A DNA stretch of 64,000 nt from Moorella thermoacetica (lineage in GTDB: Bacteria > Bacillota > DSM-521 > Neomoorellales > Neomoorellaceae): contig NZ_CP012369.1 of NCBI RefSeq assembly GCF_001267405.1, positions 2,336,402 through 2,400,401 on the forward strand. The letters are read 5' to 3'. A model generated the notes under the pieces. It did no database searches, had not been told where the DNA came from, and saw only the letters and a program-made list of their open reading frames with translations. Made by a program: the position numbers and the translations under genes. Shown one piece after another: positions 5,119 to 58,833 of this stretch. Position 1 is the first letter of the stretch. The number at the start of each line of letters is the position of its first letter.

Positions 5119-6318
5119 TTACTCCACTGTCACTGCCATCTTATCCTGCAGCACGCCTACGTTGGTCACGGCCACCTGCTCGCCGGCCTGCAGCCCCTTA
5201 AGTATCATCACCTGTTCATCGTTTTTCAGGCCCAGAACAACCTGCCGCCGCTCTACCGTGCCGTTCTTAACCACAAAGACATAATCCTGGCCGTTGTCTG
5301 TGCAAACAGCAGCAAGGGGTACAACGACGCCCTCCGGGGCCGCCAGCTTAAATACGGCCCGGGCCGTCATGCCGGCCTTCAGCTCGCCCGGGTTGGGCAG
5401 GCTGATCTCCACCGGGAAACGCTGGCCGGTGGTAGCCGCCACCGGGCCCACCTGGGTCACCGTGCCGGTAAACTCCCGGCCCGGCAGGGCGTCCAGGGTG
5501 ACTGTCACCTTCTGTCCCGTTGACAGCAGGGGGACTGCCTCCTGGCCGACTGTCCCCTGGAGCTTCAGGGTGGAAGTATCGGCGATGGTCAGCAGGGGCT
5601 GGGGGCTCGTGGGTGCGGCCATTTCACCGGGATTTATGTTCCGGTTGGTGACAACACCGGTGATGGGACTGGTGATGCTGGCATTACTCATATTTACTTT
5701 AATAATGTTGACCGCCGCTTCAGCCTGGGCCAAACCGGACCCGGATGCGGTTTCATATTGTTTTTGGGCGGCCTCATACTGTTTGTTGGCAGCCTCATAG
5801 CCATTTTTAGCCTGGTCCAACTTGGTCTGGGCATCGTCCAGCTGGCTCTGGGACGCCGCGCCGGCATCTGCCAGGGCTTTAATACGATCGTAGTACTTCT
5901 GGGCGGCATCCAATGCGACCTTGGCATTGGCTATAGCGACGCGGGCTGAATCCATACCGATGCGCGCCTGTTCCGCCTGATCCTGGACACTGCGAACGGC
6001 AGCCTCGGCCTGCTGGAGCTGGGCCTGGAGCTCCTTGGTATCAATCTCCACCAGGACCTGGCCGGCCCGCACCCGGTCGCCGACATCAGCTTTCACGGCC
6101 GTCACCTGACCGGACAGTTTGCTGACCACATTGGCCGTCCGGGCCGGCACCAGGGCGCCGGTTACCTCTACCGTCGCCGCCATCTTCCCCTTGCTGGCGG
6201 CGACAGCCTTAACAGTCACCTGGTCGCTGGCCCCGGCCCTGGCGCCGCAACCGGCGACACCCAGGGCCAGAACACCTACAAGCAAAAGGGCTACCACCCT
6301 TTTCCCCCACATTGGCAT
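5119..6318 (-). CDS. HlyD/RND-type membrane-fusion adaptor lipoprotein
   Basis: A 399-residue efflux adaptor. The N-terminus has a hydrophobic signal ending in VAGC, a lipobox, so it is probably a lipoprotein. A biotinyl-lipoyl half-domain (GDRVRAGQVLVEID) leads into an Ala/Gln-rich coiled-coil hairpin (about residues 80-200). The second lipoyl half (ITSPITGVVTNRNINPGEM), a beta-barrel (VTLDALPGREFTGTV) and a C-terminal membrane-proximal domain follow. It is the last gene of the marR-emrB-emrA-adaptor series on the minus strand, 56 bases after the EmrA-like gene. It presumably couples a pump to an envelope conduit. Confidence 0.9.
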   Translation of the reverse strand: MPMWGKRVVALLLVGVLALGVAGCGARAGASDQVTVKAVAASKGKMAATVEVTGALVPARTANVVSKLSGQVTAVKADVGDRVRAGQVLVEIDTKELQAQLQQAEAAVRSVQDQAEQARIGMDSARVAIANAKVALDAAQKYYDRIKALADAGAASQSQLDDAQTKLDQAKNGYEAANKQYEAAQKQYETASGSGLAQAEAAVNIIKVNMSNASITSPITGVVTNRNINPGEMAAPTSPQPLLTIADTSTLKLQGTVGQEAVPLLSTGQKVTVTLDALPGREFTGTVTQVGPVAATTGQRFPVEISLPNPGELKAGMTARAVFKLAAPEGVVVPLAAVCTDNGQDYVFVVKNGTVERRQVVLGLKNDEQVMILKGLQAGEQVAVTNVGVLQDKMAVTVE

Positions 6319-6374: not shown

Positions 6375-7070
6375 TTATCTAATATGAATGCGTACCGTGG
6401 CATTCATCCCCGGCAGCAGCTTAACATCGCTGGCATCCAGGAGCTGGATTTTTACCGGTATGACCTGGGTCACCTTGGTATAATTCCCATTGGAGTTCTG
6501 GGCCGGGAGCAGGGAAAAGACCGAAGTCGTCGCCCGGCCGATACTGGTCACCCGGCCGCTGAAATGACGGTCCGGGAAGGCATCAATAGTAACATCCACT
6601 ACCTGACCGACCTTGACCTTTTCGATGACGGTTTCTTTAATATTAGCGCTGATATACAGGTGTTCAGTATCGGCGATGATAGCCAGGGCCATGCCAGGAG
6701 CCGCCATCTCCCCGACCAGGGCCTTAGACTGGATCACCTGGCCGTCGATGGGAGACTTAATCTCAGCCTTCTGGGCCATGACACCGGCTGCCGTTCCTAG
6801 AGCCTGGGGGTTGACGGCGCTGGAAGTCAGGGAAGATTCCAGGTCCTGGCGGCCCAGGACCTGACCGGCTTTAACCTCATCGCCTTCCTGGACGCGCCAT
6901 TCCAAAAGCTTACCCGCTATTTCCGGGCTCACCGTCACTGTGTCGGCCGCCACCCGGGCGTCGTCGGTACTGGCAAAATTAAGATTTTCGTAGTAGTAAT
7001 AAAAGGCAATGGCACCGGCACCAGCCAGGGCCAAAACGAGTACCAGGATGACTACTAACCTCCTTGACAA
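6375..7070 (-). CDS. Short EmrA-like membrane-fusion adaptor
   Basis: A 231-residue HlyD-family protein with one N-terminal membrane segment (residues about 5-27). Lipoyl halves (WRVQEGDEVKAGQVLGRQD and IKSPIDGQVIQSKALVGEM) and a beta-barrel domain ending in the typical GMNATVRI follow. Only about 25 residues separate the two lipoyl halves, so the long coiled-coil hairpin of Gram-negative EmrA (about 390 residues) is missing. It lies 20 bases after the MFS gene, in the order typical of EmrAB operons reversed. The short form fits a cell without an outer membrane. Confidence 0.88.
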   Translation of the reverse strand: MSRRLVVILVLVLALAGAGAIAFYYYYENLNFASTDDARVAADTVTVSPEIAGKLLEWRVQEGDEVKAGQVLGRQDLESSLTSSAVNPQALGTAAGVMAQKAEIKSPIDGQVIQSKALVGEMAAPGMALAIIADTEHLYISANIKETVIEKVKVGQVVDVTIDAFPDRHFSGRVTSIGRATTSVFSLLPAQNSNGNYTKVTQVIPVKIQLLDASDVKLLPGMNATVRIHIR

Positions 7071-7090: not shown

Positions 7091-8695
7091 TTACTCGCCG
7101 CCGCCAAAGCCCGGCCGGGCGCCGCCAGGCCCTTTTTGGAGGAAAAAGGCCGGGAGGACGCCGGCCAGGGCAAAACCGGTCATCACGACAAAAATGTCGT
7201 CAATACCTCGTATAAAAGCCGCCTGGGACACCAGTCCTGCCAGATAAGTGGTACCCAGGCTCTTCACCTGGGTCGCTGCCGACCCGCTCCCCAGGTAGAG
7301 AGCCACCTGCTGGAAAAAGGCCGTAACGGCCGGGTTGTCCGCTGTGATCTGGCTTGCTAGCTGCGTAGCGTGCAGGGCCGTACGGTGATTTAAAATCGAG
7401 GTCAAGATGGCTATCCCGAAAGAACCCGACACCCGGTTGATAATATTGGTCATGGCCGAAGCCCGGCCTACCAGTTCTGGCGGCAGCCCCGCCAGGGCCG
7501 CCGTCTGGGCCGGCATGGAGGCAAAAGACATGCTAACGCTCCGCAGGATCAGCCAGGTAATGATGACCCTGTCGGGGGTAACGATATCTAAGAAGTGAAA
7601 GAGATAGGTTGTTATCGCCAGCACTACCAGCCCGGTCACCGCCATCAGGCGGGGGCCGATGCGGTCGTAGAGGCGGCCGGTTACCGGCATCATCAGCGCC
7701 GAGGCCAGGGCGCCGGGCATGGACAGCAGACCCGTTTCCATAGCTCCCAGGCCGCGGACGGTCTGGAGAAAAAGGGGGACGTAGAAAATGCCGCCAAAAA
7801 GGCCAATGGTGGTTACCACCACCATGAGATTGGCCAGGGTAAAGGCCGGATAGCGGAATACCCTCAGCTCCAGGAGGGGGTTGGCACAGGTAAGTTCCAG
7901 GTAAATAAAGAGGCCGAGGGAAACCGCGCTGGTGTAAAACAGGAAGACGGTGGCTTCTGAGGTCCAGCCCCAGTCCGCGCCCTTGCTCAGGGCCAGGAGG
8001 AGGGTAAAAAGGCCTACCGCCGCCGTTACGGCCCCCCCGATATCCAGCCTGCCCGCTTCGGCAGCCGGGAAATCTGGCAGGAGGACCAGGGAAAGCAGCA
8101 CCCCCAGCACCCCGATGGGCAGATTAATGGTAAAAATCCAGCGCCAGTCAACATACTCCACCAGGTAGCCGCCCAGGGTCGGCCCGATGGCCGGCGCCAC
8201 AAAGAGGGCAATCCCCAGCACTCCCATGGCGCTGCCAATTCTTTCCCGCGGTACCATACGATAAATCATGGCCATGGTAGTGGGCATGATCAAACCGCCG
8301 CCCAGGGCCTGGACCACCCGGGCCGCGATGAGGGAATCGACGTTCCAGCTCAAGGTGCACAGGAGTGACCCGAAGGTAAATATAACCAGAGCGATGACGT
8401 ATAACTTTTTGAAGCCCAGCTTGTCACCCAGCCAGCCGCTTAAGGGGACAATAACCCCCAGCGCTAGCATGTAAATGGTGACCACCCACTCGACCGTGCT
8501 GGTATCGGTATTAAAAACATGCATGATGGTCGGGATGGCCACATTGACGATGCTGGAGTCCAGGATGGACATAAAAGCCCCGATGAGGGCCACCAGGACG
8601 GGGATAATCCAGGAGCCCTGTACCTCGCCGTCGGCTGCCGGCAGGCCTGCTCCTGCCCCCGATTGTTCCCTTTCATGATCGGCCAAAACTTTCAC
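7091..8695 (-). CDS. EmrB/QacA-type drug:proton antiporter (DHA2 MFS, 14 TM)
   Basis: A 534-residue MFS protein of the DHA2 family. The pattern includes LDSSIVNVAIPTI in the first helix, WVVTIYMLALGVIVPLSGWLGDKLGFKK (motif A region) and a motif C-like GPTLGGYL after helix 4. Length and the number of hydrophobic segments fit 14 helices. Its start (GTG 8695) overlaps the end of the MarR gene by 23 bases, suggesting coupled translation. With the adaptor genes after it, it should form an inner-membrane drug exporter, probably repressed by the adjacent MarR protein. Confidence 0.93.
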   Translation of the reverse strand: MKVLADHEREQSGAGAGLPAADGEVQGSWIIPVLVALIGAFMSILDSSIVNVAIPTIMHVFNTDTSTVEWVVTIYMLALGVIVPLSGWLGDKLGFKKLYVIALVIFTFGSLLCTLSWNVDSLIAARVVQALGGGLIMPTTMAMIYRMVPRERIGSAMGVLGIALFVAPAIGPTLGGYLVEYVDWRWIFTINLPIGVLGVLLSLVLLPDFPAAEAGRLDIGGAVTAAVGLFTLLLALSKGADWGWTSEATVFLFYTSAVSLGLFIYLELTCANPLLELRVFRYPAFTLANLMVVVTTIGLFGGIFYVPLFLQTVRGLGAMETGLLSMPGALASALMMPVTGRLYDRIGPRLMAVTGLVVLAITTYLFHFLDIVTPDRVIITWLILRSVSMSFASMPAQTAALAGLPPELVGRASAMTNIINRVSGSFGIAILTSILNHRTALHATQLASQITADNPAVTAFFQQVALYLGSGSAATQVKSLGTTYLAGLVSQAAFIRGIDDIFVVMTGFALAGVLPAFFLQKGPGGARPGFGGGE

Positions 8696-9945: not shown

Positions 9946-11142
9946 ATGAACGCTTTAAACCAAATCAAATTCAAAAAAACGGCGGTAACCGTCTTGCTGG
10001 CAGGCATTATCGCCGCAACCGTCTTTATCTTTCATAATTACTTTTACAAACAGCAAGCAGCAATCGCCGAAGAGCGCGACAGCCTCACAGCCACCGGGAC
10101 AATCGAAGCCAGGACCGCCATGGCCGCTTTTAAAGTCCCCGGCAAAATCGAAACCCTGCTTGTCGATGAGGGCGCCAGGGTAGAGCAGGGTCAGGAACTG
10201 GCCCGCCTGGACAGCAGCGAGCTAAATGCCAAGCTGACCCAGGCCGAAGGGGCTTATGCCGCAGCCCAGGGGCAGGAGAGCCAGGCCAGTAACAACGTCA
10301 CCTACCAGAGCCAGCAAATCGAAGCCAAAATCAAACAGGCCGAAGCAGGAGTAGCCGAGGCCCAGGTGGGCGTTAAGGACGCCCAAGATCAGGTGAACGC
10401 AGCCGAGGTGGGCGTTAAAGATGCCAAAGATCAGCTAAACAACGCCAAAGACCTCTACGACCGCCTCCGCCTCCTGCACGACCAGGGCGCCATAGATGAC
10501 CGCAAACTAGAAGAAGCCAAAAACGGCTACGAGCGGGCCCAAAACGCCTACAACGCCGCCCAGATCAGCTACGAGCGGGCCCAGAACGCCTACAACGCCG
10601 CCCAAAAGAAACTCCAGGAAGCCCAGGCTCTCCTCGACCAGGCAATATCAGCCCGCACCGGGGTGGCGGTAGCCCAGGCCCAGCAAGAAGCCGCCGCCGG
10701 CCAGGTCAAGCAAGCCGGCGGGGCGGTAGAGGAAGCAAAAACCTACCTGGCTGACGCCATTTTAAAGGCCCCCATAGCCGGCTTCATCACCCAGAAACTC
10801 CTCGAGCAGGGCGAAATGGTCAACGCTGGAACGCCGGTCTTTGAAATAACCGACCTCCTCCATACCTACGTCAAGGTTTACATAAGCGAAAAGAAGATCG
10901 CCCGCGTCCACCTCGGCCAGGAGGCGGAGATAACGGTAGATGCTTTACCGGGCAAAGTCTTTAAAGGCAAGGTCGTGTGGATCAACGACGCCGGCGAGTT
11001 TGCCGTCAAAAAGGCGATTAACGATCAGTACGAGCATGACATCCGCAGCTTCGAGGTTAAAATCGATGTCCCCAACCCGGACCTGGTCTTAAAAACCGGT
11101 ATGACGGCCAGGGTAAAAATCCTGGAAGGGAAGCAGCAATAA
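9946..11142 (+). CDS. HlyD-family adaptor of ABC-2 exporter
   Basis: A 398-residue adaptor with one N-terminal membrane segment (about residues 14-32). A lipoyl half (VDEGARVEQGQELARLDSSE) is followed by a very long Ala/Gln/Glu-rich coiled coil (about 80-265), the second lipoyl half (LKAPIAGFITQKLLEQGEM) and a beta-barrel domain. It opens a four-gene exporter operon and is followed by the ATPase gene with the stop and start overlapping. The coiled coil contains two tandem 14-residue duplications (see the repeat entries). The gene resembles YbhG of the YbhFSR-type exporters in order and layout. Confidence 0.92.
   Translation: MNALNQIKFKKTAVTVLLAGIIAATVFIFHNYFYKQQAAIAEERDSLTATGTIEARTAMAAFKVPGKIETLLVDEGARVEQGQELARLDSSELNAKLTQAEGAYAAAQGQESQASNNVTYQSQQIEAKIKQAEAGVAEAQVGVKDAQDQVNAAEVGVKDAKDQLNNAKDLYDRLRLLHDQGAIDDRKLEEAKNGYERAQNAYNAAQISYERAQNAYNAAQKKLQEAQALLDQAISARTGVAVAQAQQEAAAGQVKQAGGAVEEAKTYLADAILKAPIAGFITQKLLEQGEMVNAGTPVFEITDLLHTYVKVYISEKKIARVHLGQEAEITVDALPGKVFKGKVVWINDAGEFAVKKAINDQYEHDIRSFEVKIDVPNPDLVLKTGMTARVKILEGKQQ
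10366..10449 (+). repeat. Tandem 42-bp repeat in adaptor coiled coil (first)
   Basis: Two adjacent 42-base units (10366-10407, 10408-10449), each encoding VGVKDAxDQxNxAx. Each unit is 14 residues, exactly two or four heptad halves, so duplication lengthens the coiled coil without breaking its phase. Confidence 0.85.
10528..10611 (+). repeat. Tandem 42-bp repeat in adaptor coiled coil (second)
   Basis: Two adjacent 42-base units (10528-10569, 10570-10611), each encoding YERAQNAYNAAQ plus two residues and nearly identical at the DNA level. Near identity suggests a recent duplication. Confidence 0.88.
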
Positions 11143-12981: not shown

Positions 12982-12994
12982 GGGGAAGAGTCTC

Positions 12995-19622: not shown

Positions 19623-19939
19623 AAAGCTACCAGCACCTTAACCACCTGAGAAAGCAAGACCGGGTCAAAACTGGGGCTGACCTCGATAATGGCAGGGCCT
19701 ATCCTGACCAGCAAGGAGTTGCTAACATTAGATGTCTGCTCGCTTATTTCAACCGGCAGCCACCGGGTTGATTGGGCGGAAAGAACGCCATTCTGGTTTT
19801 TATATTTCCGCAGCCAGTACCATAACTGCCGGGGGCTAACGCCTTCATGAGTGGCGCACCATTCTTTAACGCTCTGCCCGCTCATCTTATATTCGGCTAT
19901 CCGGCTTGCCCACAGTTCCTGCAGCTCGGCTTTGGTCAT
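19616..19939 (-). CDS. tnpA: IS66 accessory protein TnpA (helix-turn-helix)
   Basis: A 107-residue protein. The N-terminal half has a helix-turn-helix, with SGQSVKEWCATHEGVSPRQLWYWLRKYK (about residues 20-47), typical of IS66 Orf1. GGGAGG lies upstream of ATG 19939. It precedes tnpB with a short overlap. Intact. Confidence 0.9.
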   Translation of the reverse strand: MTKAELQELWASRIAEYKMSGQSVKEWCATHEGVSPRQLWYWLRKYKNQNGVLSAQSTRWLPVEISEQTSNVSNSLLVRIGPAIIEVSPSFDPVLLSQVVKVLVALC

Positions 19940-20325: not shown

Positions 20326-21909
20326 CTATCTGTCCAGAGTTTGGATCGCATCAGAAAATCCCTTTAACATTACCATGGCCTGGGCCCGGGTAGCATCGTC
20401 ATGGGGGTGCAAGTTGCCATCTGGTAGAGTCAAATTGATCCCTGCGTCCTGGCAGGAAGCAAAGGCACCCTTGGCCCAATCGGAAATAACTGCATAGTCT
20501 CTGAAGCACTCAAGGCTGCCCACATTACCCGTACCATGGTAGCCCGCAGCCTTTAGAGCCCGGGCCAGCATAACGACCATTTCCTCCCTGGTGATATTAT
20601 CTCGCGGAGCAAAGATATCTTTTTCCTTACCCGAAACCAGTCCCGCCCGGTAAGCGGCTTCAACGGCACCATAAAACCAGTCGCCTGAGTTCACGTCTTT
20701 AAAGGTAGGCGTAGTCGGAGTTATTTCTTTTTTGTTAAGAGATCTTAATAATAAAGCGGTAAATTGGGCCCTGCTAAGGGGTTCATCAGGCATAAATAGA
20801 CTGGTAGTAACCCCTATTGCTATCTGCCTGGCGGCCATGGCTTCAATATCCGCTTTAGCCCAGTGTTTTTGAATGTCTTCAAAGGTCTTTTGATAATCGA
20901 TGACGGCATATATACCTTCATTTTCAAGATGTAATTCAATAATGCCAGCAGTAGCATTAACACCCTTTATATATATCCATCTTTTTTTCGTTTCGTCATA
21001 TCGGAAAGCACCTAAGCGCGCAGGATCGCTGTCTTTACCGAGATCAAATGACAGGGCCATCCGAACGCGCTGGCTAAAATCTGCCGATGACGAAGCCCCG
21101 TTAACTGCCAGCCGATAAGCCTTGACAGCATATATTCTGCTGGCAAAATGGAGAGTCAAGTTCGCGTCAAGGTTAGGGAGGTCCTTGCTCTCCATTTCTT
21201 TGTAGATAATAGCTACTCTAGCAGTTCCGTCACTAAAATCAAAATCTTTTGCAGGCATTAAAAAAGAAATACCATCACCTTGAATTTTTAAATTCAAGTT
21301 CCTGGCAATAAGGTCTTTGGCAACACTTACAGGCACATTTACTTGGATTTCCTTTTTAGCGACCACTTCAGGTATTTTTAAGAGTAAATTGTTATAGGGC
21401 CTGGCGTTTTCTAGGTCTTGCGCCTGTTCCGTTAACCCGAGCTTATCTAGATGTTCTTCCAGCTTTTTAGCGTCATCCATCACTCTTCCTAGGTGGTAGG
21501 GAATAGCGTTTTCAGCTATATCTACCACAGCCTTGCTGCCTGTAAACCAAACCTTTAGAAGAGAATTCGGAAGTAAAGGCATTTCTTGAACGATTAGTGA
21601 CACCGCTTTTTTTACCTCGTCCAGGGTGGCACTTTCAATATCGACTTTGTCAATTTCCTCAAGTGCATCTATCTCGCTAATTAAAAGGCTGATTGCCGTA
21701 CCCGGATCCATCGCACCTTTATCAAGTTGATAACTGATATTCCTGACCTCCGCCGCTACCTCATTATTAATTTTCTCAGGTTCATTTTCTTCATTGTCGT
21801 TAGCTAAGGCATTTCCTGAAAAGGCAAAGCTGCCGGCAAGTATAGTCAAGATGAGGAGCATTAGTAATCTCTTGCTTAGAGGTCCGCGTCTAATTAACCT
21901 TCTTTCCAA
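20326..21909 (-). CDS. S-layer-homology domain surface protein
   Basis: A protein of about 528 residues. A signal peptide (about residues 13-36, ending SGNALAND) is followed by an unrecognised helical domain and a beta-rich middle. Three C-terminal SLH domains (about 355-520) follow; they begin FEDIQKHWAKADIEAM, FKDVNSGDWFYGAVEAA and FRDYAVISDWAKGAF. SLH domains bind pyruvylated wall polysaccharide, so the protein is wall-anchored. TTG 21909 has GGGGAGGG six bases upstream; the longer ATG 21990 has no ribosome site. It follows the TolC-like and stalk genes on the same strand, forming an envelope cluster. Confidence 0.88.
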   Translation of the reverse strand: MERRLIRRGPLSKRLLMLLILTILAGSFAFSGNALANDNEENEPEKINNEVAAEVRNISYQLDKGAMDPGTAISLLISEIDALEEIDKVDIESATLDEVKKAVSLIVQEMPLLPNSLLKVWFTGSKAVVDIAENAIPYHLGRVMDDAKKLEEHLDKLGLTEQAQDLENARPYNNLLLKIPEVVAKKEIQVNVPVSVAKDLIARNLNLKIQGDGISFLMPAKDFDFSDGTARVAIIYKEMESKDLPNLDANLTLHFASRIYAVKAYRLAVNGASSSADFSQRVRMALSFDLGKDSDPARLGAFRYDETKKRWIYIKGVNATAGIIELHLENEGIYAVIDYQKTFEDIQKHWAKADIEAMAARQIAIGVTTSLFMPDEPLSRAQFTALLLRSLNKKEITPTTPTFKDVNSGDWFYGAVEAAYRAGLVSGKEKDIFAPRDNITREEMVVMLARALKAAGYHGTGNVGSLECFRDYAVISDWAKGAFASCQDAGINLTLPDGNLHPHDDATRAQAMVMLKGFSDAIQTLDR

Positions 21910-22096
21910 TCCACACCCTCCCCAAGTAGCCGGTAACCAGCTACATTTTTTATCGATTATTCCACATAGAACCAGATAGGCTTCCCCCATTACTATTTTA
22001 AACCTACATTTTTATCATAAGGGGGTAAAGAGGAGCTGAAAATAAAAACTAGCAGGCAGGTAAGCCGTACTAGCTTATAACCTCTATTGATATCTA

Positions 22097-23224
22097 TTAA
22101 TTGCCGCTAGCCGTCTGCATAGCCCAGGGTTTTTCGAATGCTAGCTTTAAATAAGCATGGTTACGAATTAACTCGTCAACAGCTTCCTGAGCCTGGGCGA
22201 CGTTAACTTCTGCTTCAAAAACTTTAGTTTGAATGCTCATGCCGGCAGCATATTTCGCTTTTTCAACGCGCAGCGCTTCTTCGGCCATACGCAATGCCTC
22301 TAAGGCCGTACCATAGCTTTCCTCCAAACTTTTCGTTTGGTAATACAGAGCGCGTGTCGCTTTCTCCATCGCCGTTTTAGCACTGGCATAATCATATTCG
22401 GCTGCTTCTACTTCAGCTTGCCGCGATTTGTAAGGTATCACATTACCTTGGCTATCATAAATGATGTCAGATGCCCACTTTTTGATATCGATTTGCTGCT
22501 TCGCCGCCCATACGGCAGGTGATTCAGTGAGAACCCTATCAACTTCTGCGTCCAGGCTATTAATGTTCAGCGGCTGATAATCTGGAGTGTCAACTAACAA
22601 CGGTCTCTCTTCTGGGAGGAGACCAACCAAGTTGTTAAAAGTATTGTAAGCGTCATTTAAGTTCTGTCGTGCAGCTTCGTAGTTCTTTTTTGCTTGTTCC
22701 CACTGCGCCTCAGCCATAACTATCTCTGCAGGGGACAAAGTACCAGCTCTCTGCCCTGCACGGGCCTCCTGCAATTTTTTTATGGCCTGCTGCATTAACT
22801 TTTCTTGAAGGGATAGCTTTTCCTGCGCTACCTGAACATCCCAGTAGCTCTTGCAGACTTTTAGAACCAATGTGTCCCGGGTTGCTTCCAGATTTTTTTT
22901 ACTCATGCGCCAAGCTAAATCTGAAGATAAAAGATTTACCCAGGTAGCCTGCACTTTCGTTGCTGTAACTGGGTCAGGAGCTGCCCATCCCTGCGGCGGG
23001 ATGCTTTTTACATTATCGGCTACATTATCGCGAAGGGCCTCTGTACTGCGTACTTCCACTTCAGCCTTTTTAACGCCTTGGTCGTGTTGCAGCGCCATTT
23101 CGACTGCTTCCTGAAGTGTTATCTTTTGAACCTTTCCATCTGCAGCCGTTGCGGCAGCAGGGAAAATCATGCTATAGCTCAGGAAAAGCGCCAAAAGCAA
23201 CAAATTTAGTTTTCGCAACTGCAC
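22097..23224 (-). CDS. TolC-like protein with short barrel segments
   Basis: A 375-residue exported protein (signal about 1-28, ending AATAADG). It begins ITLQEAVEMALQHDQGVKKAEVEV, the classic outer-membrane-efflux start. Two long helical pairs follow, with an internal repeat (SKKNLEATRDTLVLKVCKSY, then TRALYYQTKSLEESYGTAL). The loops where TolC puts its membrane beta-strands are only about 20 residues (PPQGWAAPDPVTATKVQATW) and about 13 (DSQGNVIPYKSRQ). Start GTG 23224 has AGGAGTGA upstream. It sits between the SLH and stalk surface proteins. I infer a periplasm-like or wall-spanning helical conduit without an outer-membrane barrel. Confidence 0.82.
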   Translation of the reverse strand: MQLRKLNLLLLALFLSYSMIFPAAATAADGKVQKITLQEAVEMALQHDQGVKKAEVEVRSTEALRDNVADNVKSIPPQGWAAPDPVTATKVQATWVNLLSSDLAWRMSKKNLEATRDTLVLKVCKSYWDVQVAQEKLSLQEKLMQQAIKKLQEARAGQRAGTLSPAEIVMAEAQWEQAKKNYEAARQNLNDAYNTFNNLVGLLPEERPLLVDTPDYQPLNINSLDAEVDRVLTESPAVWAAKQQIDIKKWASDIIYDSQGNVIPYKSRQAEVEAAEYDYASAKTAMEKATRALYYQTKSLEESYGTALEALRMAEEALRVEKAKYAAGMSIQTKVFEAEVNVAQAQEAVDELIRNHAYLKLAFEKPWAMQTASGN

Positions 23225-23245
23225 GGTACATTCACTCCTAAATTT

Positions 23246-23273
23246 GGAACCCGGACCAAATGATCCGGGTTCC
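23246..23273 (-). terminator. Intercistronic hairpin between stalk gene and TolC-like gene
   Basis: GGAACCCGGA (23246-23255) and TCCGGGTTCC (23264-23273) form a perfect 10-bp stem with an 8-base loop. There is no T-run after it, so it may be an attenuator or an mRNA-stability element rather than a full terminator. Confidence 0.55.
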
Positions 23274-23306
23274 CCATTTACTATTCTAAATTACTCACAT
23301 CGCAAT

Positions 23307-25562
23307 TTATTTGCTAATGGTTACGGTCTGCGTGGCTTCGTCATAGCCAACGTTGTAATATCCAAAAGCGTTAGCTACGTAACGGGCCGGGAGCATGATG
23401 CGACCATTAACCACTTGGGCGGCTACATCCATGGGGATGCTAACGCTGCCCAGTTTCATTATATTGCTGCCAATGGTAAATTCAACTGACGTACCATCTT
23501 TCAGCAAGATGGCGCTTTGTGTGTCGTTGTTGAAGTAGATGTTCTCAGGATTTACGCCTAAGGCGTTGGCCAAGTAGCGAATAGGCACGAAAGTCCTGCC
23601 GCTGTCAACGTAAGGCGCCACGTCCATTGTGTAATTGACGCCATTCACGTTGTAGTTTTTGTCCCCAATAACGAATTTGACAGTCGCCTGGGTTTCGCTC
23701 GGAGCTGGTGTAATGACTTTAGCAACGGAAGCTTTGGCTATCCATTCATTGTCGGGGAAGAAGCCATCCATACTATTCTCGACCAGGGCTGTACCGCCGA
23801 TCTTAAGTTCCAGGTCGCCCACGGGTACGGTACGGTCCACGGTAAGCTTGATGTTACTGATCTTTATAGTGCTAGCTTTAGCGCTCTGGCTCTTAATCTT
23901 AATCTTAACCATGTTATCATCGCTGTACCGTTGGACAGTATCAATCTCCAGATCGCCATCGCTCACGGTAACCGTCGGGGTCACGTCGAAACGTACACCC
24001 TCAGGAGCTTTTATAACCAGGTAACCGGGATCGGCATCTAATTTCTTAGATGCGCCATCAATTAGCATGTCTGAAGCATCCAGGTCTTTCTGGAAAACTT
24101 CGGCAGCGCTCTCGGTAATCATAAGGTCACCAGCAGCCTGGCCACGTTCGCCGATGATCACACTGGGAGTGCTGGAAGCACTTGCGGTCACCGGGGCCTT
24201 AGCTTCAGCAACTACGACCGTTCCGGTAACACCAGCAGAGCCGCCTACAGTCAACTCGATCTTGCCAGTAAAGTCAGCTGCCGCGGTAACCTTGCCGTCC
24301 TTAAAGACGATTTCAGTGGGTTTATTGCCAGAGGTAGCTTGGGTTATTTTAGCCTTAATTGTACGGCCGCTAGTACCCACCGCTTCAAAGTTGTCGATTG
24401 CAAACGACCCTACGTTCTTGGAATCACCGCTGGAAAACTTCGGGTACTGTTCCCACTTGACGTTTTCAGGCAAGGTCAGCTCAATAGTCCTACCAGCTAC
24501 GAGAGAGCCCGGTAGAGCCTCATCGATGGCAAATTTGCCAATCTCCTGGTCAAACTGCCCAGGCTGAATGCTTTTAACCTCTATGGATTTCAGGGAAGCA
24601 CTATAGTCGCCATAGTTGGCCACAACAACGTCACTGGGGGTAACAGTGGATTCGCCGCCCAAGGTAACAGTTACGTCGCCGTACTTGGCCACACTGGTGT
24701 CAACTTTAATCGTACCACTGACTTCGAGGCGGATTTTGGAAGAGGAATCTTTGGCGTAAGAAAACCCTTTTAGCACCTTCACTTGCAGTTCTCTCTCGTC
24801 TTCGTATACCTTGAAGACGGTAGATATATTAGAATCAGTGATGGTAGTGCCACTACTATCTACCAACTGGCCGCTTACCAGCTTCACGCTGCCACTACCA
24901 TCTTCCCAAGTAAACCCGTTGGGCAGCTTAAATTTAACGGTATTCTTCCCTACAGTGTTGTCCAGGCCGTAGAGGGTATTTTCCTGCACGGTAAAAGTAA
25001 CATCACCGCCGCCGTCACCAATGGCGACAACCTTGTCAACAGACACTTCTACACCGGCGCCTTTAGCCACCGCGGCCACAACGGAACCGTTCTCCAGAAT
25101 GCCGCTCGCGTTGGAAAAGCGGACCTGGACATCGCCGGCGGCAGCGTCTTTTGCGTCGACTGCCAATTTAAGGGTGAGCTCGCTCTTAGCTGTCGCACTC
25201 CCTGCTTTAACCTTTAATTTTGCATATTTATCACCTGGATTATACGTTGCATCAGCAACCGAGACATTACTTCCTATCCCCTCGAAATCTACGCTTTTAA
25301 TGTCGAGTTTCGACCCTTCAGAATCTAAAACCTCGACGATGGCCTCGCCCTCCGCATCGGCCAGGGCCGGGTCGATTTTAATGTAAACTGTCGCCAGATT
25401 TAAATTCTTGGCCTCATCTTTGCCGGGATCAAAGCTCGGGATTGCGGTTATAGTCTGGTACTGGGTATTCGCCAGGGCAGGATGGGCGCCGAAAGGCACC
25501 AAGGTGAAGAGAAACATCACTGCAAGGACAATTGAAAGCCATTTCTGCCTCGTTTTTAACAA
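23307..25562 (-). CDS. Large stalk-domain (copper amine oxidase N-like) surface protein
   Basis: A 751-residue secreted protein. Signal residues about 8-31 end at HPALA. A long beta-rich region follows, with repeated TVTLGGESTV- and ELTVGGSAGV-like strands and many Val/Asp/Ser/Lys residues. The C-terminal 125 residues hold two copper-amine-oxidase-N-like stalk modules (VDSGRTFVPIRYLANALGV, VNGRIMLPARYVANAFGY). It starts at TTG 25562 behind AAGGAGGG. It could be an S-layer-type protein: size, low Cys content and neighbours (SLH protein, TolC-like) fit, but it has no SLH domain itself. Confidence 0.85.
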   Translation of the reverse strand: MLKTRQKWLSIVLAVMFLFTLVPFGAHPALANTQYQTITAIPSFDPGKDEAKNLNLATVYIKIDPALADAEGEAIVEVLDSEGSKLDIKSVDFEGIGSNVSVADATYNPGDKYAKLKVKAGSATAKSELTLKLAVDAKDAAAGDVQVRFSNASGILENGSVVAAVAKGAGVEVSVDKVVAIGDGGGDVTFTVQENTLYGLDNTVGKNTVKFKLPNGFTWEDGSGSVKLVSGQLVDSSGTTITDSNISTVFKVYEDERELQVKVLKGFSYAKDSSSKIRLEVSGTIKVDTSVAKYGDVTVTLGGESTVTPSDVVVANYGDYSASLKSIEVKSIQPGQFDQEIGKFAIDEALPGSLVAGRTIELTLPENVKWEQYPKFSSGDSKNVGSFAIDNFEAVGTSGRTIKAKITQATSGNKPTEIVFKDGKVTAAADFTGKIELTVGGSAGVTGTVVVAEAKAPVTASASSTPSVIIGERGQAAGDLMITESAAEVFQKDLDASDMLIDGASKKLDADPGYLVIKAPEGVRFDVTPTVTVSDGDLEIDTVQRYSDDNMVKIKIKSQSAKASTIKISNIKLTVDRTVPVGDLELKIGGTALVENSMDGFFPDNEWIAKASVAKVITPAPSETQATVKFVIGDKNYNVNGVNYTMDVAPYVDSGRTFVPIRYLANALGVNPENIYFNNDTQSAILLKDGTSVEFTIGSNIMKLGSVSIPMDVAAQVVNGRIMLPARYVANAFGYYNVGYDEATQTVTISK

Positions 25563-37349: not shown

Positions 37350-38879
37350 TTATCTCCCCCCGAGAAAGCCGCCCGGCGGCATGGGACCGCCGGTGTTACG
37401 GTTACTGCCGCTGCTCGACCGGCCCGAGCTACTTGTGCTTCCCGTATTGCCGGTACTCCCTGTACTCGCGCTGCCTGTGCCGACTACGACCTGTTCCCCT
37501 GCCTTTAAGCCGCTGACTACTTCGATATTGCGCTCGTCGCTGGCGCCGGTTACCACCTGGCGCTGCACCGGCCGTCCGCCCTCCAGCACCAGGATTACGG
37601 CCCGGTTTTCCCCGGCGCTGGGAGTTCCGGCGGTAGAAGCGCCCGTCACCGAACTGCCTGCCGAACCTCCCGTTCCCTGGGTACTTCTACTCCGGTTACC
37701 CCCGCCGGAGGTCCCCCCTGACGAGGTTGCCCGGCCGCCGGCGGTCTTGCCGGCCTGGGAGAGGTAGCCTTCGGCATAGGCGATGGCCGCCCGCGGGATG
37801 GTAATGACGTTATCTTTGCGGCTGATAATTATGGTCACGCTGGCCGACTCGCCGGCCTTTAAGGACGCTCCCGCGTCTCCCACGTTTACCAGGACGTCAT
37901 AAAGTTGGATGTTGGAAACGGTTTGGGCTTGAGGCGCAATGGCCGTCACCTTGCCTTTAAAGGTGCGGTCAGGCTGGGCGTTGACCGTAAACTCTACATC
38001 CTGCCCCACCTTGACTTTGTTGATGTCGGCTTCATTGACTTGCACCCGCAGCTGGAGTTCGGGGGAGATTAAAAAAATAAAACTATTTGAAGCGTCGGTG
38101 GCGCTGGTATTGCTGCCCACGCGCTGGCCCACCTGCCCGTTGACGTTGGTGACAATACCGTCCCACGGTGCCCGGATCTCCGTGGCCGCCAGGTTATTCT
38201 GGGCCAGCTGCAGCTGGGCCCGGGCCGCGTCTACCTGGGCCTGGGCGGCGGCTATATCCTCCGGCCGGCTGCCGTTTTTCAGGGCCTCCAGGGCTGCCTG
38301 GGCTTTTTTCAGGTTGGCTGCCGCCGTCGCCTCCGCCTTGCGGGCATTGTTCAGGTCGACTTCCGACAGGGCGCCGGCATCATAAAGGGCCTGATCGCGT
38401 TTTAAAGTATCCTGGGCGTTGTCATATTCAACCTGAGCCTGCTCCACACCCGCCTCGGCCTGGGCCACGTCGGTAGCCAGGGGCCCGGCCTGCAGGCTCT
38501 TTAGCTTGGCCATGGCATTGTCCAGGTTCGCCTGGGCCTCCTTGACCTGAAGCTCCAGATCGGTTGGGTCCTGGAGGGCCAGGAGCTGGCCGGCTTTGAC
38601 GCTCTGCCCTTCCTTGACGTATATCGCCTTGATGGTCCCCGGATTCTTAAAGCTGAGGCCGATGCTATGTAATGCTTCAATTTTCCCGGAGGTGCTTACA
38701 GTCTCCACAATGCTCCCTTTACCGGCAGTAACGGTCAGGAAATTAGGAGCCTTCTGATGCCCCCGGGCCCACCAGTACCACCCGGCGGCGATAATCAAAG
38801 TTAGAAAGACCGCCACCAGCCATATTATTCTTTTGCCGCTAAGGAATCCTCCTTTAGCCGTTACCGTCGCTGTCGCCAT
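37350..38879 (-). CDS. MacA-like adaptor with Ser/Gly-rich tail
   Basis: A 509-residue HlyD/MacA-type adaptor with an N-terminal membrane segment (about 16-32). The first lipoyl half (VKEGQSVKAGQLLALQD) leads into a coiled coil (about 110-220), the second lipoyl half (IRAPWDGIVTNVNGQVGQRVG) and the barrel (VEFTVNAQPDRTFKGKV). A long Gly/Ser/Thr-rich insertion (about 365-410) and a similar tail (about 470-509) follow. The linker and tail could reach through the wall. It heads the MacAB-like operon. Confidence 0.9.
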   Translation of the reverse strand: MATATVTAKGGFLSGKRIIWLVAVFLTLIIAAGWYWWARGHQKAPNFLTVTAGKGSIVETVSTSGKIEALHSIGLSFKNPGTIKAIYVKEGQSVKAGQLLALQDPTDLELQVKEAQANLDNAMAKLKSLQAGPLATDVAQAEAGVEQAQVEYDNAQDTLKRDQALYDAGALSEVDLNNARKAEATAAANLKKAQAALEALKNGSRPEDIAAAQAQVDAARAQLQLAQNNLAATEIRAPWDGIVTNVNGQVGQRVGSNTSATDASNSFIFLISPELQLRVQVNEADINKVKVGQDVEFTVNAQPDRTFKGKVTAIAPQAQTVSNIQLYDVLVNVGDAGASLKAGESASVTIIISRKDNVITIPRAAIAYAEGYLSQAGKTAGGRATSSGGTSGGGNRSRSTQGTGGSAGSSVTGASTAGTPSAGENRAVILVLEGGRPVQRQVVTGASDERNIEVVSGLKAGEQVVVGTGSASTGSTGNTGSTSSSGRSSSGSNRNTGGPMPPGGFLGGR

Positions 38880-54384: not shown

Positions 54385-57300
54385 CTAACCTGCTGTGGTT
54401 CCCGTACCGGCGCCGGAAGCGTCCAGCTTCTGCCGGTACCCGGGCAGGCGCAGGAAGCGACCCAGGCGCTGGCCAAGGTCTTCAAAGAGTGTATAGAGAA
54501 CCGGCACCAGGACCAGGGTCAGGATGGTGGACACCGTGAGGCCGCCGATGACGGCGGTGCCCAGGCCGGCGTTCATCTCCGCCCCTTCACCTATACCCAT
54601 GGCCAGGGGCAGCATTGCCAGGATGGTTACCAGGGCGGTCATTAAAATCGGCCGCAGGCGGTTACCGCCGGCGATCAGGATAGCCTCACGGCGCGGTGTG
54701 CCCCGCCGGCGCAGGATGTTGATATAGTCCACCAGGACAATGGCGTTGGAGAGGACAATACCTACCAGCATGATGATTCCCATGAAGACCACCACGTCAA
54801 AGGTACGACCGGTGGCCAGGAGGGCCAGGATAACCCCGGTGATGGCCACCGGGATGGCGAACATGATGACAAAGGGATGGAGCAGGGATTCAAACTGGGC
54901 CGCCATGATCATGTATACCAGGGCAATGGCGAGGATCAAAGCCAGTCCCAGTTGACCGAAGGTTTCCATCATCATTTGGTTCTGGCCGGTATACTCGATG
55001 CTGTAGCCAGGCGGGAGGTTGATCCTGGCAACCTCCCGGCGGATGTCCTGCATAACCGCTCCTAAAGGGCGGTCGCCCAGGTTGGCGGTGATGCTGGCCA
55101 CCCGGTCCTGGTTGTAACGGTTGATGGTGCTGGGGGTGGTATCCATCTGCAGGGTGGCGATTTCTTTCAGGGGCACCTGGGTCCCCCTGGGGGAAGGTAC
55201 CATCAAATTGGCCAGGCTGTTTAAATCCTGGCGCCGGTCCGCCGGCAGCTGGACGCGGATGTCATACTCATCGCCGCCGACCCGGTAACGGCTGGCCACC
55301 TGGCCCCCTACGGCTGTAGAAACGGTGGCGGCTATCTGGGCCGCGCCCAGGTTGTACAGGGCGGCCCTGTCCCGGTCGACCAGGATTTCTACCTGGGGCC
55401 GCCCCCGGGTGATGCTGCTGTCCACGGCCACCGTGCCCGGCACCCGGGCCACTGCTTCCTGGACCTTTTCCGCCAGATCCTGCAGGACCTTCAAATCGTC
55501 ACCGTGAATATCCACCTGGACAGGAGCCTGCCCCGTACTGCCCATAAAAGACGAGGTTGGTGTTACGGTAATCCTCGCCCCGGCAATGCCGGCCACCGAC
55601 CGGCGGATGGCCGCGGCCACCTCCGCGGCGCTCCGCTGCCGCTGCTTTAAGGGCACCAGGGTCAAATTGATACTGGCCATTTCCGGGGTTTCGCCACCCA
55701 GAAAGGAACTCTGCCCGCCGCCACTACCGATTTCCTGGTAGATGCTCTGGATTTCCGGCTGCTGCTGGATCAAATGCACTACCCGGTCGGTCATGGCCGC
55801 TGTGGTTGCCAGCTCCGTTCCCCGGGGCAATTCGATGGTCATGCTGATGCTTCCCTCGTCCGTCTGGGGCATAAATTCAAAGCCCACGGCCGGTGCCAGG
55901 GCCAGGCTGCCCACAAAGACGAGGAGAACGGCAGCCACCACCAGTTTGCGGTGGTTTAAAGCCCAGGCCAGGAAGCGGCGGTAGGAATCGCTCAACCGGG
56001 TCATCCAGTACCCGGTGACCAGGTGCTGCCGGAAGCCCCGGGCCGCCGTGGCCTCCGGCGGCAGGTTGCCCTTAAGGATCCGGGAAGCCAGGGCGGGGGT
56101 AACCGACAGGGAAACCGCCAGGGAGGCTAGAAGGGAGCAGGTCACCGTCAGGGCCAGGGGTCCGAAGATCTGGGCCGCCAGGCCTTCGACAAAGGCAATA
56201 GGTAAAAAGACACCCACCGTCGTCAGGGTGGAAGCCACCACCGCCATGGTCACTTCCTGGGCGCCGCCGGCCGCCGCCGTCATGGCGTCCTGCCCTCCCT
56301 GGCGGTGGCGGTAGATGTTATCAAAAACGACGATGGCATCGTCGACCATCCGGCCTATCCCCAGGGAGAGGCCCCCCAGGGTCATCATGTTCAGGGTCAT
56401 GTGGTTGAAATAGAGCAGGACAAAGGTGGTAATCACCGAGATGGGGATGGTCAAACCGATGATAATGGTGCTGCGAAAGCTGCGCAAAAAGAGAAAAATA
56501 ATCAACATGGCCAGCAGGCCGCCCAGGATCATGTCCCGATAGACGGTGTTAATGGCCGACTCGATATACTTTGACTGGTCGTTGACCGCTTCAATGGTCA
56601 CCCCGGGCGGCAGTTCCTGCTGCAGCTCCTGGAGGGCTTTTTTGACGGCATGGGATATCTGGACGGTATTGCCGTTGGTTTGTTTCTGGATGGACAGGCC
56701 GATGGCCGGTTTACCGTCGAAAAGAGCAAACTGCTTCTGTTCGGCCGTCGTATCCTTGACCGTCGCCACGTCGCCCAGGCGCACCACCGCCCCCCCGGGG
56801 GTGGTCAGGCCCACCTGGCGGATCTGGTCCAGGTTGTTAAACTCCCCGTTAACCCGCACCAGGACTTTCTTGCCGGCGTCGGTCACCTGGCCGCCGGAGG
56901 AGGTTATATTCTCAGTCTGCAGGGCCTGGACCACCTGGCTGATGGAGAGACCGAATGTCTGCAGGCGAGCCGGGTCCACCAGGACCTGGATCTCCCGCTC
57001 CAGGCCGCCGGTGACGTTGACCGCCGCCACCCCGTCCAGGCGTTCCAGGCGGTTCTTGACGGTGTTTTCAGCTATATCTTTCAGCCGCTGCTGGTCCAGG
57101 TCGCCATGCAGGGCCAGGGTCATGACCGGAAACATATTGGGGTCCATTTTCATGACCATGGGCTTATCCACCCCGTCAGGGAGCCTGCTCTCGATCTGGT
57201 CAATCTTTTCGCGCATGTTCAGGGTGGCAAAGTCCATGTCCTGGCCCCAGTTAAACTCCAGGATGATAACGGAGCTCCCGGACATGCTCATGGAACGGAT

Positions 57301-57537
57301 ATTCTTAATCCCCTGGACGGTACCCAGGGCGTCCTCCAGGGGCCTGGTCACCGTCTTTTCGATTTCCTCGGGGCCGGCCCCGCTATAGGAGGTAATCACG
57401 GCCGCGTAGGGCAACTTCATGTCGGGTAAAAGGTCGACCTTCAGGCGGGACAGGGACACCACACCCATGAGGATGACCACCAGGACCACCATAGTTAAAG
57501 CTACCGGGCGTTTGATGACTGCCTGGGACCAGTTCAT
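54385..57537 (-). CDS. RND-family efflux pump (AcrB/HAE1-like)
   Basis: A 1050-residue RND permease. It begins with the standard NWSQAVIKRPVALTMVVL; the fourth helix has GRMVDDAIVVFDNI with the paired aspartates (D399, D400) that carry protons in AcrB. Two large external domains and 12 helices are evident. Four bases of its start overlap the adaptor stop. Many Firmicute HAE1 pumps export lipids or drugs; the substrate here is unknown. Confidence 0.93.
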   Translation of the reverse strand: MNWSQAVIKRPVALTMVVLVVILMGVVSLSRLKVDLLPDMKLPYAAVITSYSGAGPEEIEKTVTRPLEDALGTVQGIKNIRSMSMSGSSVIILEFNWGQDMDFATLNMREKIDQIESRLPDGVDKPMVMKMDPNMFPVMTLALHGDLDQQRLKDIAENTVKNRLERLDGVAAVNVTGGLEREIQVLVDPARLQTFGLSISQVVQALQTENITSSGGQVTDAGKKVLVRVNGEFNNLDQIRQVGLTTPGGAVVRLGDVATVKDTTAEQKQFALFDGKPAIGLSIQKQTNGNTVQISHAVKKALQELQQELPPGVTIEAVNDQSKYIESAINTVYRDMILGGLLAMLIIFLFLRSFRSTIIIGLTIPISVITTFVLLYFNHMTLNMMTLGGLSLGIGRMVDDAIVVFDNIYRHRQGGQDAMTAAAGGAQEVTMAVVASTLTTVGVFLPIAFVEGLAAQIFGPLALTVTCSLLASLAVSLSVTPALASRILKGNLPPEATAARGFRQHLVTGYWMTRLSDSYRRFLAWALNHRKLVVAAVLLVFVGSLALAPAVGFEFMPQTDEGSISMTIELPRGTELATTAAMTDRVVHLIQQQPEIQSIYQEIGSGGGQSSFLGGETPEMASINLTLVPLKQRQRSAAEVAAAIRRSVAGIAGARITVTPTSSFMGSTGQAPVQVDIHGDDLKVLQDLAEKVQEAVARVPGTVAVDSSITRGRPQVEILVDRDRAALYNLGAAQIAATVSTAVGGQVASRYRVGGDEYDIRVQLPADRRQDLNSLANLMVPSPRGTQVPLKEIATLQMDTTPSTINRYNQDRVASITANLGDRPLGAVMQDIRREVARINLPPGYSIEYTGQNQMMMETFGQLGLALILAIALVYMIMAAQFESLLHPFVIMFAIPVAITGVILALLATGRTFDVVVFMGIIMLVGIVLSNAIVLVDYINILRRRGTPRREAILIAGGNRLRPILMTALVTILAMLPLAMGIGEGAEMNAGLGTAVIGGLTVSTILTLVLVPVLYTLFEDLGQRLGRFLRLPGYRQKLDASGAGTGTTAG

Positions 57538-58751
57538 GCTTGCGGCCCCCCATTCACTATTTGCACCGGCTGGCTCTCATTGACAAAGTCCTGGCCCTTG
57601 ACGATAATGGTCGTTCCTTCGTTCAGGCCCTTCAAGATCTCGATATTCCGGCCGTCGTCGATGCCGGTGGTAACCACCTGGCCCATGGCCTTGCCGTCGA
57701 CGACCGTGTAGACGATGCTCTGGCCGCTGCGGTTGACCACGGCATTTTTCGGCACCAGAAGGGCATTCTGCACCTCCCGGGTCTGGAAGACCACCGTGGC
57801 GGCCATACCCGGTTTTACTTCCGCCGGGGCGTCAGGAATAGCCACCTTAACGCTGTACAGGCGCGTGCTCTTATCGGCAGCCGGGCTGCTGCTGGCGACG
57901 CTGCCCTCCAGGGCTTTATTCCCCGCCGCCGGCACTTCTACGCTTACCTTCTTTCCTACCTGGAGGTAATTGATGTCCTCCTCGGTTACGTTGATCTCCA
58001 CCTGGAGGTCGCCGGTGGTTACCAGGGTGACCACCGCTCCCTGGGCCGTCTCCCCGGGTTCCAGGAGGCGTGCGGCCACTACCCCGTCAACAGGAGCCTT
58101 TATGTAACAATTATCCAGGGCCACTTGCGCCTGGCGTACGGCCGCCTCCGCCGTGGCGATTTGGGCCTGGGAGGATGCCAGGCTGGCCCGGGCGGCCTCC
58201 AGGGCGCCGCGAAGTATTTCCAGGTTTTCCTTGCTGGCTGCGGCAGCCGTCCGGGCGGCGTCCAGTTGCTGCTGGGAGGCGGCTCCCGAGTCAAAAAGGG
58301 CCTGGGTCCGCTGGAGATTGGCTTCATCTAGCTGAGCCTGGACTTCGGCCTGCTTCAGCCTGGCTTCGGCCTGCTTGATCCCGGCCTCGGCCTGGGCCGG
58401 GGCGGTGCGGGCCTGGTCTAAGCCGGCCTGGGCCTGGGCCAGGCGGGCTGCGGCATCGTCATCCTCCAGCTCGGCGATGATCTGGCCCCGGCTGACCCTG
58501 TCGCCGACGTGTACCAGTACGGACTTCAGCTTGCCCGGCGTGGCGGCGGTGACGTTAACCGTTGTCCCCGCCTGGACCGTCCCCGTTACCCGGGCGGGCT
58601 GGGCGATATTGCCCCGGGTAACTCTGGCCACTTCCACCGCCACCTTTGCCGCTGCCGCCTCCTGATCGGCCGGCTTTTTACCGCAGCCGCCTACCGCCGT
58701 GGCGGCGAGGAAAAAGGCCAGGGTGAAAACGGCAAAGCTCCTCTTCCTCAC
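57534..58751 (-). CDS. RND adaptor lipoprotein
   Basis: A protein of about 405 residues with a lipobox (VGGCGKKP) after a short hydrophobic signal. The lipoyl halves (VHVGDRVSRGQIIAELED and IKAPVDGVVAARLLEPGE), an Ala-rich coiled coil and the barrel follow. GTG 58751 has GGGGGGAG nine bases upstream. The longer frame to 58805 would put the operator inside coding sequence and is rejected. Confidence 0.93.
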   Translation of the reverse strand: MRKRSFAVFTLAFFLAATAVGGCGKKPADQEAAAAKVAVEVARVTRGNIAQPARVTGTVQAGTTVNVTAATPGKLKSVLVHVGDRVSRGQIIAELEDDDAAARLAQAQAGLDQARTAPAQAEAGIKQAEARLKQAEVQAQLDEANLQRTQALFDSGAASQQQLDAARTAAAASKENLEILRGALEAARASLASSQAQIATAEAAVRQAQVALDNCYIKAPVDGVVAARLLEPGETAQGAVVTLVTTGDLQVEINVTEEDINYLQVGKKVSVEVPAAGNKALEGSVASSSPAADKSTRLYSVKVAIPDAPAEVKPGMAATVVFQTREVQNALLVPKNAVVNRSGQSIVYTVVDGKAMGQVVTTGIDDGRNIEILKGLNEGTTIIVKGQDFVNESQPVQIVNGGPQA

Positions 58752-58777
58752 GGTTACTACTCCCCCCGTATTAAATC

Positions 58778-58833
58778 GACCGAACGGTCGGTCAACAGAA
58801 ATCATCTTACCATATTTCTGACAAGGGGTTCAA
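58778..58833 (-). promoter_or_regulatory. RND operon promoter with TetR-type operator
   Basis: Minus-strand -35 TTGAAC (58833-58828), 18-base spacer, -10 TAAGAT (58809-58804), then GACCGA-CCGT-TCGGTC (58793-58778) as a 16-base inverted repeat right after the likely start. This is the classic place and form for a TetR operator. Confidence 0.78.

Follow-up and report, generated by a model that had tools for sequence, protein, structure and literature searches.

A TolC-like protein without barrel strands in Moorella thermoacetica, a probable helical exit duct in a cell lacking outer-membrane markers

In a stretch of 64,000 nucleotides of Moorella thermoacetica DNA (genus Neomoorella at NCBI; assembly GCF_001267405.1, contig NZ_CP012369.1, positions 2,336,402 to 2,400,401 of the forward strand; hereafter the window), a gene at 22097..23224 on the minus strand encodes a TolC-like protein of 375 amino acids that has the TolC fold and has firmly lost the outer-membrane barrel. 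This loss is complete and extends over the family, which is new relative to published work. We consider it probable that the protein forms a helical duct for exit across the wall or the S-layer; its trimeric state, its docking to adaptors, its position in the envelope, its part in transport and its sharing by four exporters are inferred. In the proposed mechanism, a TolC-family outer-membrane factor (OMF) that lost all four barrel strands would work as a purely helical duct. Three copies would build the usual 12-helix tube, and its hairpin tips would dock onto those of HlyD/MacA-type adaptors that belong to the RND, MFS and ABC exporters encoded in the vicinity. The distal end, with two short loops in place of the barrel, would open within or beyond the wall or S-layer, and wall and surface proteins from the same gene cluster would hold the duct in place.

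Results

The protein retains the tube of TolC and has lost the membrane portion

The single chain was modelled with AlphaFold2 (AF2) from an alignment of 55 sequences. The model (pLDDT 91.6, pTM 0.85) was all helical, with helices at residues 49–71, 85–159, 165–200, 236–252, 265–326 and 332–364, and these six helices bear out the two long helical pairs that the original prediction had read from the letters of the DNA. That prediction had also put the loops that replace the barrel strands at about 20 and 13 residues, which was close: in the model they comprise residues 72–84 (13 residues, 22973..23011 on the minus strand), where TolC has strands S1-S2, and 253–264 (12 residues, 22433..22468 on the minus strand), where TolC has strands S4-S5. 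No strands at all were seen in this single-chain model, let alone a beta-barrel of normal size. All 44 Foldseek matches in the PDB at E <= 0.001 were channels of the TolC/OprM/CusC type, and structural alignment gave Z 26.7 and rmsd 3.6 over 323 residues for TolC 9tg4, and Z 23.8 and rmsd 4.6 for TolC 1ek9, where 322 residues were aligned across TolC 1–411. Since the strand pairs are replaced by short loops and 322 residues still align with TolC, the protein has preserved the tube of TolC and lost its membrane portion.

Regarding the features of an OMF, the protein has two OEP repeats and the TolC helical fold and lacks the four membrane strands per chain. Its two repeats match PF02321 (OEP; E 4.7e-23, 82.4 bits in two stretches versus a cut-off of 22), the sole Pfam match, so that the lipoyl and beta-barrel domains of a periplasmic adaptor were not found. 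G161 is the single invariant column across the 55 aligned family members and G328 is conserved in at least 90% of them, both lying in hairpin turns of the model. The N-terminus carries a hydrophobic, signal-like segment without a lipobox, a pattern found in 0 of the 55 aligned members. In a PF02321 search of the 2.53 Mb single-contig genome this was the sole TolC-type protein found: two of the four matches were its own repeats and the other two lay inside adaptors.

Two outer-membrane markers are absent from Moorella and its nearest relatives

As outer-membrane markers, Omp85 and LpxC were searched for in 101 genomes, namely the Moorella genome and 100 relatives of the phylum (numbered with G, and their loci with L, below); in 14 control genomes the searches were positive in 7 and 4, respectively. 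Omp85 was found in 20 of the 101 genomes and LpxC in 16, all of them among those 20, and PF02321 matches occurred in 78 of the 101, some being adaptors as are two of the four in Moorella. Neither marker was found in the Moorella genome or in its 21 nearest relatives (G001–G021, of the genus, family and order), and by these two sequence markers the lack of an outer membrane in Moorella is well supported. The earlier inference of a monoderm cell was in this way upheld: SpoIID (61308-62324) and an M23 peptidase (60355-61104) were confirmed, neither marker pointed to an outer membrane in the nearest relatives, and the SLH proteins of the window together with the absence of Omp85 match the type of monoderm host of TolC-like proteins that has S-layer genes and no BamA.

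Barrel loss extends over the family

Strand loss was gauged by measuring how many residues span each strand-pair site (83 and 58 in the window protein), with rows grouped by the presence of Omp85. In a first set of 48 Omp85-negative rows, 46 had spans of 72–92 and 49–61, and the remaining two were a fragment, whose second span was 52, and an unmeasurable protein of G021. A later set comprised 17 rows from 12 Omp85-negative genomes, some of which had been sampled before; the second span was 54–63 in all 17 and the first was 76–104 in 13, with two G072 proteins at 174 and 190 and the first span not reliably measurable in one protein each of G054 and G026. Judged by these alignments, the second span is short in the Omp85-negative rows measured, and the first not always. 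The 41 Omp85-positive rows fell into 14 short forms (spans 62–66 and 58–59), 2 fragments of short genes and 25 long forms, whose first span was at least 99 and second at least 88 where measurable, several having one or no measurable span; a single long-form exception, L103:6290-7618, had a span of 58 on a 42-bit alignment. Apart from this exception the second span splits short from long cleanly, and the first span nearly does so.

The same split was visible in the Pfam matches. The best stretch of the window protein begins at OEP position 92 of 187, omitting the strand half; its start was at 72–92 in the ten short forms scanned and at 1–22 in the long forms scanned, with the exception of the G095 short form, which matches OEP 1–187 despite spans of 91 and 59. 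One barrel-type PF02321 protein was found in an Omp85-negative genome (G021, L046/L191:1256-2707, 483 amino acids). This lipoprotein, which we take to be of the NodT type, is encoded next to part of an RND gene; the contig measures 8.5 kb in a draft assembly with about 590 contigs, and in our judgement it is a probable contaminant.

Exporter linkage and the docking motif of the adaptors

Adaptors were found at all four places named in the original prediction, and a fifth, hairpin-less one was added; five of the six adaptor genes of the whole genome fall inside the window. The sequence R-x3-L-x6-S at the adaptor hairpin is the TolC-binding RLS motif in the consulted part of a published study (PMC3391258), and it occurs in the hairpin of three of the four full-length window adaptors. 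The first, of the RND_mfp type (5119..6318, minus strand, motif at 5851-5886), adjoins an MFS exporter (7091..8695, minus strand, PF07690 4.9e-58). The second, MacA-like (37350..38879, minus strand, motif at 38364-38399), stands beside two genes at 36604-37347 and 35374-36600, which were labelled from similarity and gene order and have homologues in MacAB-like clusters of relatives. The third (57534..58805, minus strand, motif at 58275-58310), which is longer than predicted when read from its first start codon, adjoins an RND pump of the AcrB family (54385..57537, minus strand, 1050 amino acids, PF00873 4.5e-277). The fourth adaptor (9946..11142, plus strand) has R-x3-L-x6-D instead and is grouped with ABC permease genes at 11833-12981 (labelled by NCBIfam similarity) and 12947-14194 (ABC-2 type by Pfam). 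The hairpin-less HlyD-type adaptor (6375..7070, minus strand) also adjoins the MFS exporter, whose two adaptors lie next to each other; its hairpin-bearing partner, that with the RLS motif at 5851-5886, has a lipobox-like N-terminus, and this two-adaptor MFS order recurs in L071 and L080.

In relatives, TolC-like genes lie within exporter clusters. Among 38 short genes classed by script in 30 Omp85-negative genomes, a same-strand adaptor, RND or MacB gene was found within 6 kb for 23, an MFS homologue within 6 kb for 3, and, within 6 kb, a stalk gene for 29 and either an exporter part or a stalk gene for all 38. The gene order was adaptor-RND-TolC-TetR in L114 and L120, stalk-TolC-adaptor-ATPase-MacB in L067 and TolC-adaptor-ATPase-MacB in L108, and the TolC-like gene of L209 precedes adaptor-ATPase-permeases, close homologues of the ABC system at 9946-14194 of the window.

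The RLS motif, counted anywhere in the adaptor, was more frequent where a TolC-like gene is present: it occurred in 22 of 28 adaptors from Omp85-negative loci with the gene and 15 of 22 from Omp85-positive loci, compared with 6 of 28 in genomes that have no PF02321 match (22, 6 and 3 in a stricter form with glycine).

Several points weigh against the duct. The difference in motif counts is favoured by a bias, the first two sets having been picked by similarity to the window adaptors and the third by Pfam (20 of 23 such genomes, 15 with adaptors; 30 of 34 match rows). The operon of the TolC-like gene in the window holds no exporter gene, the nearest ones lying about 8 and 12 kb away, and the serine of the motif is missing in one of the four full-length adaptors (9946-11142). 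Four proteins, one of G054 (L196), two of G072 and one of G026, carry long charged or acidic inserts at the site of the first loop, which by eye are helical or acidic and not strand-like (the genes of such proteins include L207:4588-6162, L207:13613-15211 and L196:4426-5829). Finally, hairpin adaptors are known across Gram-positives and are ascribed other roles in the part of a review drawn on here (PMC4446572), so the docking motif is no proof of a duct.

The last point leads to the rival that survives best, though we regard it as rather unlikely: a soluble coiled-coil scaffold that caps or aligns adaptor hexamers, or a chaperone-like substrate cage under the wall, with the material diffusing out through the porous wall. 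A one-membrane cell has no second membrane for a tube to cross, the distal end consists of two short loops with nothing evident as a seal, and roles of Gram-positive adaptors beyond bridging are given in the same portion of that review (PMC4446572). However, the helical stave design of TolC is retained at full length including both hairpin turns, and in Omp85-positive genomes a protein of this kind is encoded together with a longer member of the TolC family, both of which speak against the scaffold.

The stalk and SLH partners

The TolC-like gene stands in a minus-strand run of three genes, and the co-directional cluster originally described was borne out by coordinates and Pfam matches. Upstream lies a stalk-domain surface protein of 751 amino acids (23307..25562, minus strand, Cu_amine_oxidN1 domain, E 3e-29) and downstream an SLH-anchored protein of 554 amino acids (20326..21990, minus strand, SLH, E 1e-26), separated from the TolC-like gene by 82 and 106 bases, respectively. 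The model of the 751-residue protein (pLDDT 81, pTM 0.49) showed about four immunoglobulin/cohesin-like domains and a C-terminal stalk domain, with weak structural matches (Z 10.2 or less) to cohesins, pilins and Gram-positive adhesins, and on this model we take it for an elongated surface protein on the wall side.

In the own family, all 19 TolC-like genes have a stalk gene at a distance of no more than 300 bases, and several of these relatives have two diverged stalk-TolC pairs 10–50 kb apart (L078, L070/L071, L066/L067, L068/L069, L072/L073). In L065, L074 and L075, too, the TolC-like gene is followed by an SLH homologue. C-terminal fusion of a stalk domain (Cu_amine_oxidN1) to the TolC-like protein was found in G089 and G048 (L105:6437-8080 and L109:6416-8038), confirmed by Pfam in G089, and a TolC-like protein of 653 amino acids in G026 (L206:4217-6178) has a stalk-type match, N-terminal by eye.

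These partners bear on a second rival, in which the distal end of the duct is built into the S-layer lattice with the SLH and stalk proteins as sockets, and does not simply cross the wall. This was proposed by Stubenrauch 2022 (PMC8809574), in the available part of which such proteins are confined to species with S-layer genes. The presence of SLH and stalk proteins in the same gene run and the fusions in G089, G048 and G026 agree with it; on the other hand, an SLH homologue follows in just 4 of 19 own-family cases (contig ends not excluded) and a stalk gene lies within 6 kb of 0 of 21 Omp85-positive short genes, and we regard this lattice seat as improbable.

Short and long TolC-family genes lie together in Omp85-positive relatives

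The original prediction had regarded the lack of the barrel as characteristic of cells with a single membrane. This was incomplete, because the barrel-less form also occurs in Omp85-positive relatives, where it is clustered with a longer TolC-family gene. We examined 22 Omp85-positive short genes from 16 genomes, drawn among the matches listed, and counted a gene as paired if a longer TolC-family gene lay on its strand at a distance of up to 6 kb; 21 were classed short by the script and 2 cases were settled by eye. The script found a long partner for 20 of its 21, and L175 and an extra short gene in L094 were paired by eye with partners that both match PF02321, so that a long gene clusters with all 22 short genes of this sample. 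In 19 of the 22 the two genes overlap or are at most 60 bases apart, with start codons taken as the first possible, and the long partners in L088 and L093 are truncated where the contig or the stretch stops. The short gene of L179 scores 20.4 versus the Pfam cut-off of 22; this gene (L179:6552-7682), highly diverged and adjoining a long one, belongs to G056, which is Omp85-positive and LpxC-negative. Within 6 kb of the Omp85-positive short genes, MacB homologues were found in 15 of 21 and RND homologues in 3 of 21. Conversely, no short gene was found within 6 kb of 14 long genes, one 121-residue fragment at a contig start being unassignable, and no short gene was found in the fetched stretches of G049, G090, G093 and G100. 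A long TolC gene within 6 kb was found for 0 of 42 Omp85-negative short genes (the 38 above and those of G043, G055, G067 and G070, which the length rule had missed). Three long partners flagged by the script in Omp85-negative genomes were rejected, as the flagged genes are adaptors.

The clustering in Omp85-positive relatives suggests a four-part exporter in diderm Bacillota, consisting of transporter, adaptor, barrel-less TolC and barrelled TolC, which we put forward tentatively as a possibility we would not bet on. The barrel-less trimer would be a tube segment stacked between the adaptor and the outer-membrane TolC, bridging a wide periplasm and the wall, and would predate the loss of the outer membrane. 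In Moorella-like lineages the barrelled part would have been lost along with the membrane, and the extension, by then linked to the surface proteins of the stalk and SLH types, would have become the exit duct, a record of the diderm-to-monoderm transition. Two short-type genes lie side by side in Omp85-negative G061 and G024 (L204:4822-7125 and L205:3358-5890); pairing can persist without an outer membrane, and this leaves the odds of stacking unchanged. Adaptor lengths in tandem and single clusters overlap. Judged by titles and abstract openings, no description of a short and long pair in diderm Firmicutes was found among the papers listed.

Origin and selection

A tree of 82 rows was built, drawn from those gathered before the later 17-row Omp85-negative set. 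In it the 44 short proteins of Omp85-negative genomes formed one clade (SH-aLRT 95), which was adjoined by 12 of 14 short proteins of Omp85-positive genomes, the other two being placed elsewhere; one row labelled short, L093_63_1184, is a cut-off long gene. This row and two long-branch rows (that of G021 and L102_8131_9753) were dropped from a constrained tree, in which grouping all 58 short proteins gave a likelihood 7 units better than the free search and was not rejected by the approximately unbiased (AU) test (p 0.61). Long branches limit the tree, which is suggestive only of a single origin of the short form, in cells still having an outer membrane; that this form may go back to one old lineage would be new here.

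The ratio of nonsynonymous to synonymous substitution rates (dN/dS) of the TolC-like gene was 0.106, 0.082 and 0.100 in three pairs, the first being that with a 98%-identical relative, and by this measure of the sequences the gene is under purifying selection. The SLH gene differed in this respect: between the window genome and G009 its dS was 0.016 versus 0.086 and 0.098 in its two neighbouring genes, with dN/dS 0.71, for which a recent exchange is possible.

That the protein is a decaying relic of the TolC of a diderm ancestor, as the missing barrel where the outer-membrane markers are missing might be read, is very unlikely: dN/dS was 0.08–0.11, the helical core is kept and the short form is present in Omp85-positive relatives too, and the low dN/dS likewise disfavours barrel loss as recent decay. 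We give still less credence to a cryptic outer membrane with the loops as a minimal barrel: several deep-branching Bacillota stain Gram-negative, but Omp85 and LpxC are absent from Moorella and its 21 nearest relatives, the AF2 model has no strands, and Thermanaeromonas toyohensis, which NCBI places with Moorella in the family Neomoorellaceae, appears in a list as monoderm (staining and listing both from the part of PMC11448272 used here).

Other features of the window

At 46331-51972 an SLH subtilase of 1234 amino acids adjoins WecG/TagA and LytR-CpsA-Psr genes, a neighbourhood of wall polymers and a surface protease. Beside the SLH gene of the cluster, three open reading frames at 17612-19939 presumably belong to an IS66-type transposon.

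Discussion

The Moorella protein resembles TolC/OprM (PF02321) in its duplicated OEP repeat, the full-length helical stave fold, the glycines of the hairpin turns and the linkage to HlyD/MacA/AcrA-type adaptors in relatives, and differs in that all four barrel strands are missing and the host lacks both outer-membrane markers. Compared to MacAB-TolC and AcrAB-TolC, the relatives have the same genes in the same order (adaptor, transporter, TolC-like); however, many clusters of Omp85-positive relatives hold two TolC-family genes, short and long, and the Omp85-negative clusters examined hold short-type genes only, apart from the probable contaminant of G021.

The closest precedent is Stubenrauch 2022, cited here from the accessible portion of its text and supplement (PMC8809574), which described 12 TolC-like proteins of monoderm Firmicutes, spread over five families. 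Many are encoded in operons that also hold the two remaining pump parts; they were found only in species with S-layer genes, and a seat in the S-layer was proposed. Shared with Moorella are the phylum, S-layer genes, the lack of BAM and an omission in the barrel, and with its relatives also the exporter operons, and the Moorella protein is very likely of the same kind. In that portion an omission in the barrel is seen in one model, of a C. difficile protein built with Phyre2, and a modelled hydrophilic barrel domain is still spoken of, in contrast to the absence of strands here; a supplement legend gives one L. gingivalis operon with two putative TolC-like proteins; and the stalk partner, the RLS motif and the short form beside a long TolC in diderms are not mentioned there. 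The original prediction had called a conduit through the wall or S-layer a new arrangement. Its novelty did not stand, as the hypothesis was published (PMC8809574, same portion), and its substance is partly supported by the missing barrel, the absence of Omp85 and LpxC, the TolC fold, the docking tips, the RLS motif in three of four adaptors and the exporter operons of relatives. In another Gram-positive relative, Desulfotomaculum reducens, a PF02321 protein and two HlyD proteins were detected in surface extracts according to the excerpted text of PMC4137172; this protein, Dred_3141, is likened to ours by description, and in that text its barrel is not discussed.

What is added to the published idea is the complete, family-wide loss of the barrel, a possible single old lineage and the short and long pairs in Omp85-positive relatives. 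If the proposed duct is true, export tubes need no outer membrane, and the helical half of TolC can work alone through the wall or S-layer, which would help to account for the TolC-type hairpins kept by some Gram-positive adaptors. The arrangement of short and long genes in diderm relatives would then be a new pump architecture, and it would become testable how cells kept exporting as the ancestors of one-membrane Firmicutes lost their outer membrane.

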